From a virus, in the IMG/VR virus record IMGVR_UViG_3300023179_000488, positions 1 through 24,890 of that record: a stretch of 24,890 bases of DNA; one strand, given 5' to 3'. The translations under genes and the position numbers were made by a program. The notes beneath the pieces were generated by a model that saw nothing but the letters and a program-made list of their open reading frames with translations, ran no database searches and was not told the DNA's origin. This document shows positions 3,956 through 22,689 of the stretch, piece after piece (position 1 is the first letter of the stretch; every line of letters starts with the position of its first letter).

Positions 3956-3991
3956 TCCACATTAACTGCCGCGTATCTGCCCCTGATCGCC

Positions 3992-4038
3992 AAAAAAGAA
4001 CCCCACCGTTGCGCCGGATGATCCGTGCAATGGTGGGG
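3992..4038 (-). terminator. Rho-independent terminator ending the 6892-4085 operon
   Basis: The arms CCCCACCGTTGC (4001-4012) and GCAATGGTGGGG (4027-4038) pair over 12 positions with one G-U wobble. The loop holds a further CGGA/TCCG stem. Read on the minus strand, the stem is followed by TTCTTTTTT (3992-4000), the expected U-tract. It lies between the ends of the convergent primase gene and the small minus-strand operon. On the plus strand it lacks a U-tract but may still slow polymerase. Confidence 0.85.
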
Positions 4039-4084
4039 CTAAGTGGGGATGGACGCCTGCGCCACTCCGGGGGAGGAGCCGGGG

Positions 4085-17544: not shown

Positions 17545-17811
17545 ATGACCCTCGACCTGTTTCGACAGAACACACTCAACGCCTTACAGGCGGCGATTGA
17601 TAACAAGACGACGGCCGCCGTGAATATGCAAGCAAAGCAGTTCACGACGGTCGATCAGTACGCCATGTCGCAGGCAGAAACACTTGCGGAAGCAAGGGCA
17701 CTGTTGTTCGCGCAGCAGGTTATTCATGCAGAGTTTACCAAACTGATGAAGCCGCAACAGGCCGAGTCAAACGCTTCGACCCCCAAACCTAAGACAGAGG
17801 AAGTATACTAA
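17545..17811 (+). CDS. Small helical structural-region protein (88 aa)
   Basis: The product begins MTLDLFRQNTLNALQAA and is predominantly helical with Gln, Ala and Lys; the tail NASTPKPKTEEVY is likely disordered. No family is recognised. It sits between the repeat protein and the GroES-like protein, whose ATG overlaps its stop (TAATG). Its ribosome-binding site is weak. Position suggests a head assembly accessory, but that is inference. Confidence 0.55.
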   Translation: MTLDLFRQNTLNALQAAIDNKTTAAVNMQAKQFTTVDQYAMSQAETLAEARALLFAQQVIHAEFTKLMKPQQAESNASTPKPKTEEVY

Positions 17812-18323
17812 TGACAAATCAAGCACCACCGCTTCCGATTCGCGGCGCACTTCGCCCGCTTTCATTTATTGAGCCCCATGAAGAAACCGAGGCTCGCGAC
17901 TGGATCAACAACGAGTTTATTGCCCTGACCGGGAAGCCGTTTGACATGCGCGTTTGTGGCTACATGGTGGCCATTAAACTGCACATTCGCTCGGATGAGA
18001 TTAAAGAAGTTGACACCAAAAACGGCAAGGTCACTTTGTATCGGCCACAATCAACTGTCGATGCAGACAAGTATCAGTCTGTAAGCGGCGTTGTCGTCGG
18101 CATTGGTCCGCAGGCTTACAAGGGCACAATGGCCGATGGTAGCAGCAAGTATCCAGAAGGGCCTTGGTGCAAGGTGGGCGACATTGTGATGTTGCCGCGT
18201 TTTGAGTCCACACCGATCACGTTTCGCGGCGTTGTGATGGCAATGGTTGTTGATGACCGCATCCAAGCGATTATCAGCGATCCAAACGACGTTCAATCAA
18301 TCACCATGGCAGACCGGATTTAA
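17811..18323 (+). CDS. GroES-like (Cpn10-fold) co-chaperonin
   Basis: The 170-residue sequence matches the layout of a GroES-type beta-barrel: GYMVAIKL near residues 50-57, a poorly conserved mobile-loop region around 60-85, VVVGIGPQAY near 94-103, VGDIVMLPRF near 122-131, and VVDDRIQAII near 146-155 near the C-terminus. Phages such as T4 (gp31) encode co-chaperonins that replace host GroES for capsid folding, and GroES-like genes occur in many phage head modules. The 45-residue N-terminal extension is unusual. It lies between the portal and scaffold genes, exactly where a capsid-folding helper would be useful. Confidence 0.7.
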   Translation: MTNQAPPLPIRGALRPLSFIEPHEETEARDWINNEFIALTGKPFDMRVCGYMVAIKLHIRSDEIKEVDTKNGKVTLYRPQSTVDADKYQSVSGVVVGIGPQAYKGTMADGSSKYPEGPWCKVGDIVMLPRFESTPITFRGVVMAMVVDDRIQAIISDPNDVQSITMADRI

Positions 18324-19454: not shown

Positions 19455-19934
19455 ATGGCAAATCAAACAAGATCATCTGAGTCGCGCGGCGCAACGGGTC
19501 GCAAGGCTGAACGTCGTCCAATGCCTAAACCGCATTGGCAATCAAAACTATACATTCCGGGCCACCTCATCCCGGCAGGAATGACGTACAAGTGGACGCG
19601 CGTTGCCACGCTCAACCAGCCCGACGGCAACAATTGGCAGAACAACATGATTGCTGGTTGGAAGCCGGTGCCGCGTGAGCGCCACATTGATTTGTTTCCA
19701 TACATTCCCATTCCCGGCGTTACGCAGGATGAGCAATACATCAACAACGGCGACCTGATTCTTTGCGAGCGCCCCACAAAAGACGTGATGGCCGAGAAGC
19801 GCGAGAAAGAGCGCGACACGTTTGAGCAAGTCAACAGCGTGCAATGGGCATTGGATGGCCAGATTGCAGCGCCCGTTGTCAACGAATCACGTACCGAGAT
19901 TGAGCGTGTGACGGCTGAGTTTCAAGGAGAGTAG
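19455..19934 (+). CDS. Hypothetical virion-region protein (159 aa)
   Basis: The product begins MANQTRSSESRG. It contains a strand-rich middle (PHWQSKLYIPGHLIPAGMTY, WTRVATLNQPDGNN, GDLILCERPTKDV) and a charged helical C-terminus. AGGAG lies nine bases before ATG 19455. I associate the pattern with unnamed proteins of phage head regions, with no known function. The gene is followed by a structured RNA and a promoter, so it may end the upstream transcription unit. Confidence 0.6.
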   Translation: MANQTRSSESRGATGRKAERRPMPKPHWQSKLYIPGHLIPAGMTYKWTRVATLNQPDGNNWQNNMIAGWKPVPRERHIDLFPYIPIPGVTQDEQYINNGDLILCERPTKDVMAEKREKERDTFEQVNSVQWALDGQIAAPVVNESRTEIERVTAEFQGE

Positions 19935-19938
19935 CCTT

Positions 19939-20020
19939 TGGGGTGCAGCCGGTTAAGGCTGTGCCCGCTCCTCTGTCAAGCGGGTGCGCCGCTTCGAGGG
20001 GTCGAGCCGGCTGCACCTCG
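19939..20020 (+). ncRNA. Multi-branched RNA element upstream of the capsid genes
   Basis: An outer stem pairs GGTGCAGCCGG (19942-19952) with CCGGCTGCACC (20007-20017), 11 perfect pairs, extendable by wobble and GC pairs at the base. Inside are two smaller hairpins: CCCGCT (19964-19969) with AGCGGG (19979-19984), and TCGA (19994-19997) with TCGA (20002-20005) around GGGG. The result is a three-way junction of about 80 bases. It is not followed by a U-tract, so it is not a simple terminator. It could be a cis-regulatory element, an RNA-processing site or a small RNA. Confidence 0.5.
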
Positions 20021-20033
20021 CCACAAAATCTGC

Positions 20034-20063
20034 TTGACGAAATTATAATGCGCACGCAATATA
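20034..20063 (+). promoter_or_regulatory. Candidate promoter for capsid genes
   Basis: TTGACG (20034-20039) is followed after 18 bases by AATATA (20058-20063), in an AT-rich stretch that also contains TATAAT at 20044-20049. The exact -10 cannot be decided. It lies in a long gap ahead of the genes at 20231 and 20857. The remaining sequence to 20230 shows an AGCCG/CGGCT hairpin near 20111-20129 and no gene. Confidence 0.4.
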
Positions 20064-20230
20064 GCGTACTATATATCTGGGTTGCGGTAGACCCCTGACG
20101 CACCTCAGACCCACGATAGCCGTCACGTTATCGGCTCCTGGCTATGGCCATGTATCGACGCCAGTTACGCATCTGGTCGGAACCTGCACCGATAAAGCAG
20201 CCCCCGAAGTCGAGAACAGGAGTCATAGCC

Positions 20231-20833
20231 ATGACATATGGCGTCAACGCAGCCCGAGGCCTTCAGCCGGTCAATACTGGTGGCGGCTATACGTGGAACG
20301 GCCAAGCCAACGAATATCCCATCACTGCCACTTACGCGTCGAGCATGTTTATCGGGGACCCGGTAACACTCGCCACTGACGGCACCGTGATCCGCGCAAC
20401 CGCATCGACCGCCGTCCTCGGCGTGTTCCAAGGTTGCCAATACATTCCGTCAACCAATTTCGCGGGCACTGTGAAGTACCCGTATTGGCCCGGCAATCCC
20501 GGCGTCCAAACCGGCACAACGCCTGTTGCGCTCGTCATTGACGACCCGATGGTGCAATACACCATTCAGGAAACTGATGCGGCTGGCGCCTCTGGTACGC
20601 CGCTGACCCAAGCATCGGTCGGCAACAACGCCAACTTCCTCTACACGGCAGGCAGCACCGCAAACGGTCTTTCTTCTGTTTCCATTAACAATGCATCAAC
20701 CGCAACAACCTTGGTGGCCAACCTCAAGCTGGTGCGTCTTGATCCAACTGTCGGCAATACGACGGGTGCGTTCGCGAACTGGATCGTCCAGATCAACAAC
20801 GACGTCTACAAAGCCGGCAGCGTTCGTCCGTAA
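20231..20833 (+). CDS. Predicted capsid decoration/stabilising protein
   Basis: The 200-residue protein begins MTYGVNAARGLQPVNTGGGY and is rich in Gly, Thr, Ala and Asn, with little charge. It has strand-rich blocks (SMFIGDPVTLATDGTVI, VLGVFQGCQYI), in the style of head decoration or surface proteins that appear just before the major capsid gene. CAGGAG lies eight bases before ATG 20231; the longer frame from 20144 extends into the leader and is rejected. A structural role is inferred from composition and position. Confidence 0.65.
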   Translation: MTYGVNAARGLQPVNTGGGYTWNGQANEYPITATYASSMFIGDPVTLATDGTVIRATASTAVLGVFQGCQYIPSTNFAGTVKYPYWPGNPGVQTGTTPVALVIDDPMVQYTIQETDAAGASGTPLTQASVGNNANFLYTAGSTANGLSSVSINNASTATTLVANLKLVRLDPTVGNTTGAFANWIVQINNDVYKAGSVRP

Positions 20834-22643: not shown

Positions 22644-22689
22644 CTTCTACCTGCTACGCAACCACGTAACCTGACAGAGAGGATACACC

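Follow-up and report, generated by a model that had tools for sequence, protein, structure and literature searches.

A C4-like candidate antisense RNA between head-gene operons of a phage group, with loop complementarity to the ribosome-binding sites of two phage genes, one of them GroES-like

Known C4 RNAs have a role in phage immunity, and the small RNAs derived from 3′ UTRs in enterobacteria sit at the end of an mRNA and can target a gene carried on that transcript, typically being released by RNase E with help from Hfq. The C4 RNA is about 77 nt long and contains the stem-loops P1 to P3, has its RNase P cleavage site where P1 begins on the 5′ side, and covers ribosome-binding sites (RBSs) with its loops (PMC5320573). 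It has been reviewed as an RNase P substrate in which an extended stem replaces the T-loop (PMC10731613 / PMC11143913), and the determinants of bacterial RNase P comprise a 12-bp stem, a 3′ RCC(A) and the junction A(-2)U(-1)/G(+1), the slash marking the cut (PMC10731613; PMC11143913). The phi80-induced M3 RNA, the hisCD mRNA and pre-4.5S RNA are likewise non-tRNA, hairpin-type substrates of this enzyme (PMC10731613).

The element described here lies in a 24,890-nt stretch of viral DNA (IMG/VR record IMGVR_UViG_3300023179_000488), the whole of which is called the window. A gap of 296 nt between ORF 19455-19934 and ORF 20231-20833 holds the element, 3-5 nt 3′ of the stop codon, and the genes around it comprise terminase, portal, a GroES-like gene, head-region genes of no assigned role and a gpT-like major capsid protein (MCP). 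An initial annotation had described an 11-pair outer stem enclosing two hairpins at this place; the fold and its two hairpins were recovered there, with a longer outer stem and with the element proper confined to 84 nt. Its parts are as follows.

19937-19939, + strand: 5′ leader UUU (UAY in most relatives), a conserved edge with a predicted RNase P cut at 19939/19940
19940-20023, + strand: 84-nt structured element, candidate antisense RNA (fold z = -4.0; outer-stem covariation in 16 sequences)
19940-19953, + strand: P1 outer stem, 5′ arm (fold, covariation)
19957-19990, + strand: P2 hairpin, whose apical loop is predicted to bind the targets (fold)
19970-19978, + strand: apical loop CCUCUGUCA, predicted seed for both targets (fold, complementarity to RBSs)
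19994-20005, + strand: P3 hairpin, UCGA-GGGG-UCGA (fold)
20006-20019, + strand: P1 outer stem, 3′ arm (fold, covariation)
20020-20023, + strand: unpaired GCCA tail (RCCA in relatives), RCC being invariant and conservation stopping after CCA

The minimum free energy of the element is -51.9 kcal/mol (z = -4.0, 0/200 shuffles), and the full 125 nt of the initial annotation (19939-20063) give z = -3.2. The P1 outer stem has 14-15 bp around the two hairpins (19957-19990 and 19994-20005). Other identities were considered and rejected: ARAGORN gave no tRNA or tmRNA cloverleaf with a T-loop at default settings and only weak, inconsistent calls at relaxed thresholds; indels lying between the stem and the core alter the frame among members of the relatives termed T2 below, which argues against coding or stop-codon readthrough; and the strand order does not fit an HDV-like ribozyme, by reasoning from the sequence only.

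About 140 related loci were gathered by means of ORF 20231 and the capsid protein. One of them, L002 (88% identical protein), bears the element with an identical core and with an outer stem that is changed but compensated, its P3 reading GCGA-GGGG-UCGC. A further group, T2, with 50-57% protein identity to the window and about 25 contigs, from which 14 distinct elements were aligned, carries at the equivalent place an element of the form GGGGUGG...CCACCCC-ACCA with the core CUUUCCCUUGCCGGAG. A MAFFT alignment pairs the window core with the T2 cores, and a scan with the window-core pattern matched L002 only. A model built from T2 alone found L002 at the syntenic place (E = 0.0012) and did not find the window, so that the window is tied to T2 via L002 and synteny. 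Inside the outer stem, the window and L002 differ in structure from T2, the members of which are mostly predicted to fold as a single rod.

In the covariation set of 16 sequences (the window phage, L002 and the 14 T2 elements), the 15 outer-stem pairs are paired in 96.7% of cells and show both-side changes in 8/15, values reached by 0/500 shuffles; pairing falls to 55-57% when the partner is slid by one column, and slid controls overall give 38-57%. The G1:C pair is invariant in this set, and the core is invariant while identity in coding DNA between the T2 lineages L009, L018 and L042 is no higher than 71-73%. Judged from these alignments, the outer stem is kept through compensatory changes. 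The covariation that the initial annotation had proposed to search for is thus present, and the pattern that it had set against its own proposal, relatives whose changes break the stems without compensation, is not the one found.

The P2 segment 19957-19966 is able to pair instead with 19941-19950, which raises the possibility of a bistable switch in which the 5′ arm would pair with either a proximal or the distal segment, perhaps with coupling to a ribosome located at the stop codon. Proximal pairing is possible in 94.2% of cells and is stable as a local hairpin, but its covariation is far less (both-side changes at 3 pairs, reached by 34/500 shuffles), it fails in part in L002, and the distal fold beats the best local fold by 4 kcal/mol in the window to about 15 kcal/mol in L002; a switch is accordingly regarded as very improbable.

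Conservation at the edges, scored in 12 sequences, falls off sharply on either side of the element; the set leaves out L046 and L053, both reading ACCCA instead of ACCA. The 5′ edge has U(-3) at 1.0 and A(-2) at 0.83, followed by Y(-1), and the 3′ edge has RCCA at 0.70/1.0/1.0/1.0, the two positions that follow scoring 0.29 and 0.23. The RNase P substrate features in the element comprise a UAY/G start, a stem of more than 12 bp and an invariant RCC(A) tail, although the window reads UUU instead of UAY before the element, and the window and L002 each go without some conserved feature. These edges agree with the published RNase P determinants, and the 5′ end is probably cut by this enzyme. Regarding the RNA-processing site that had been suggested initially, the tRNA-precursor-like boundaries of the element speak for it, with cleavage as a prediction from sequence.

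The apical loop of P2 is complementary to two RBSs in the window, one upstream and one downstream of the element.

17793-17801, + strand: predicted target site 1, GACAGAGGA, within the RBS of the GroES-like gene; its 9 nt are complementary to CCUCUGUCA of the loop plus one flanking base
17811-18323, + strand: GroES-like co-chaperonin gene, candidate target 1 (PHROG 3188, E = 6e-5; synteny with annotated GroES in isolates)
22672-22683, + strand: predicted target site 2, TGACAGAGAGGA, within the RBS of gene X; the first 8 nt of the site, TGACAGAG (22672-22679), are complementary to the loop
22690-23448, + strand: gene X, candidate target 2, with a GTG start (T2 homologs weakly MptE-like)

When 38 gene starts of the window, hand-chosen from the ORF table rather than taken from a gene caller, were ranked, the GroES-like gene (9 nt) and gene X (8 nt) came out on top and the rest had at most 6 nt. 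Gene X was found by first seeking complementary sites, so that the result from the window, taken by itself, is post hoc, and better tests come from L002 and T2. The RBSs of the two genes in L002 are TGACAGAGAGG and TTGACAGAGAGGA, the window and L002 sites having GACAGAG in common, and T2 has the loop CUUGCC and GGCAAGG at both RBSs. The motif is found at the GroES site in 12/12 T2 and 2/2 window/L002 loci and at the gene X site in 10/10 and 2/2, respectively, and at neither of the control starts (MCP and ORF 20231) in element-bearing loci. Loop and both target sites thus differ jointly between the aligned lineages, which provides two natural versions, each being the control of the other. Composition-preserving shuffles of the loop reached 8 nt in both sites of the window in 8/20000 cases and 7 nt in both sites of T2 in 352/20000, the latter being a weaker test, and a 15-mer complement search returned the element itself as the sole match without mismatch. 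Since the seeds are short (7-9 nt) and RBSs are purine-rich, part of the match is expected; besides, there are only two loop versions, and common ancestry is a partial confounder for element, gene X and motifs.

Given the fold, the boundaries and the complementarity, it is likely that the element is a trans-acting C4-like antisense RNA on two phage genes. In the mechanism that we infer, transcription of the operon with the GroES-like gene would yield the RNA at its 3′ end, and the RNA would fold into the outer stem and inner hairpins. Host RNase P would probably make the 5′ cut, recognising the UAY/G junction together with the extended stem and the 3′ RCC(A), and the 3′ end would be trimmed. 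The P2 apical loop would then pair with two RBSs and block them, that of the GroES-like gene on the upstream side and, on the downstream side, that of gene X, a member of the capsid operon; repression would be the sign of the effect, and its logic could be one of feedback. The small RNA from the upstream transcript that the initial annotation had listed among its options gains ground from the C4-like anatomy and the loop-RBS complementarity in trans, the RNA itself being predicted.

Comparison with the C4 RNA of P1/P7 (Rfam RF01695) reveals both likeness and difference. The element is similar in its length of about 80 nt, its long outer stem around inner hairpins, its UAU/GG-type start and RCC tail, and a loop complementary to RBSs, here one loop for two target genes in both lineages. 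The two inner hairpins of C4 are present in the window, but only in part across the set, where T2 is mostly a rod, and C4 has two specificity loops (a′ and b′), whereas one clear seed loop is seen here; in L002 the duplex at gene X is extended. When 12 phage records were scanned with the C4 model, its best match coincided exactly with the T2 element in L163, at full length, with 16.6 bits against a gathering cut-off of 45 bits, and other GC-rich hairpin families score like C4 on that element, so that the match is a hint only; the window gave no RF01695 match, and no Rfam family reached the cut-off in the window, L002 and T2 loci, searched at gathering and relaxed thresholds. C4 has its target in an antirepressor system, whereas the candidate targets here are the GroES-like gene and gene X; the element lies between head-gene operons and not in an immunity/antirepressor operon, its neighbours being head genes, and no antirepressor match occurred among the genes scanned. 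Because it fails the Rfam threshold and lacks the immunity-operon setting, the element is not filed as a C4 member and is called a C4-like variant outside the Rfam families at cut-off.

The M3 RNA, hisCD mRNA and pre-4.5S RNA resemble the element in being of the hairpin type with pre-tRNA determinants in common; pairing with a GroES-like gene or gene X is not known for those RNAs. Enterobacterial 3′ UTR-derived RNAs are alike in being small RNAs at an mRNA end, but the edges of the element resemble an RNase P substrate. We lean slightly towards the broader proposal that a C4-type RNA outside the coverage of Rfam, set free from the operon's 3′ end and probably matured by RNase P, controls the GroES-like gene and gene X in the head-morphogenesis module through pairing of its loop with their RBSs, its loop and targets having co-evolved. 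If true, RNase P-matured antisense control would be a more general phage tool, beyond C4 immunity and tied to head assembly, and a structured 3′ UTR could set the co-chaperonin dose relative to the capsid genes.

Loci scored as element-less serve as further controls. Neither motif stands at the GroES site in 43/44 of them, the exception (L374) being a cut locus of the element-bearing genome G004, and the gene X loci that were scored as element-less and have the motif, L349 (G004) and L361 (G007), are cut loci of element-bearing records as well. Among element-bearing loci that extend far enough downstream, 34/34 contain gene X, as against 0/103 element-less ones, the cut locus L361 aside. A later scan added L413, which has gene X, no element by model R1 and an intrinsic terminator in the slot; its gene X RBS, CCCAAGGATAGG, has neither motif, indicating in this single case that the motif follows the element and not gene X as such. 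These results bear on a purely cis-acting processing or 3′-end element, at which an RNase P or RNase III cut would split the upstream from the capsid message or protect a 3′ end with no targets in trans. Such a role would suit both the position directly after a stop codon, in the terminator slot of relatives, and the RNase P-like edges; nevertheless, it leaves unexplained the loop match to the RBSs of two distant genes, differing together by lineage, and the case of L413, and we consider it unlikely.

When the RBSs of two near-complete T2 genomes (236 and 294 ORFs) were ranked by their match to the loop, gene X and GroES both stood near the top. The run is longer at a NeuB gene (Pfam E = 2e-60) in both genomes, and at a small ORF before GroES in one of them; NeuB was rejected as a third target, its RBS match not being kept in three other phages. 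Other exact GGCAAGGA sites in the T2 genomes appear by eye to be coding. The small ORF before the GroES-like gene in T2 (e.g., L047, L048 and L163) keeps CTGGCAAGGA in codons 5-8, a possible site for the T2 loop. NeuB-family genes (PF03102) occur in the element-bearing genomes G002, G003, G004, G005 and G009 (e.g., L397:15342-16043) and were not found in five element-less genomes. Together with the weak MptE-like match of the gene X homologs, NeuB may hint at nonulosonic acid chemistry; the AlphaFold model of gene X has low confidence (pLDDT 53).

In 53 relatives, a hairpin and a canonical intrinsic terminator followed by a promoter occupy the slot of the element, a count that leaves out the element-bearing L002, and a few of the other terminators called by the script lie outside the slot. 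The corresponding gap measures 14-78 bp in most isolates that share the gene order, and searches returned no DNA match to named phages and no named phage with the element. The initial annotation was right that no U-tract follows the structure in the window, and identity as an intrinsic terminator was rejected for this GC-rich hairpin, the sister phages having a U-tract terminator in the same slot. A terminator or insulator working without a U-tract, in place of the intrinsic terminator of the sister clade, would fit the shared slot and the very stable GC-rich stem, but the U-tract is missing though the phage has a canonical terminator near 4000-4040, and neither the conservation of core and RCCA nor the loop-RBS matches would be explained; this reading is improbable. 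That canonical terminator (window 3990-4040) belongs to a leftward operon, so that U-tract terminators are used elsewhere in the phage. Upstream of ORF 20231 homologs, the sister clade (e.g., L017, L021 and L013) shows a stop codon, CUCCGG with a covarying-looking hairpin, an intrinsic terminator and a promoter. In L008, an extra, apparently HNH-like frame follows directly after the CCA of the element (about 1150-1700, by eye).

The element is a single copy per genome except in one contig of G002, where the ends of G002:C1 (590-670 and 61435-61516) hold non-identical versions, suggesting a mixed-strain assembly. A packaging or replication signal, as DNA or RNA, had also been put forward initially, and a structured, single-copy element (bar that contig with its differing ends) would be compatible with it; no evidence for it was found. 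The element is absent in sister phages with the same head genes and in isolates with the same gene order, and the G-U pairs of the stem and the loop-RBS matches point to RNA. We give this reading next to no credence.

The initial annotation had also seen a promoter-like stretch just after the structure, of which one part was located.

20034-20039, + strand: TTGACG, a -35-like hexamer of a putative capsid-operon promoter (position kept in relatives; no call from the consensus scan)

No full sigma-70 promoter emerged from the consensus scan after the element in the window, and relatives carry TTGACA-N17-TAATTT or similar where the window has TTGACG. A capsid-operon promoter is therefore plausible mainly through the relatives, and weak in the window. 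A target in cis within the capsid leader was rejected, since the duplexes are mostly not better than those of shuffles. By eye, CTCCTG in the window leader (20134-20146) is complementary to CAGGAG (20216-20228) in the Shine-Dalgarno region of ORF 20231, and T2 leaders have similar CUCCG / CGGAG pairs. Small RNA hairpins are moreover repeated in the window leader (20118-20136 and 20160-20177) and in the capsid-operon leaders of relatives; they follow the pattern CGAY-[5-7 bp variable stem]-U(C/U/A)ACGU(U)A(U/C), with a self-complementary ACGU in the loop, and number 171 in 68/81 distinct leaders (shuffled control 0.05).
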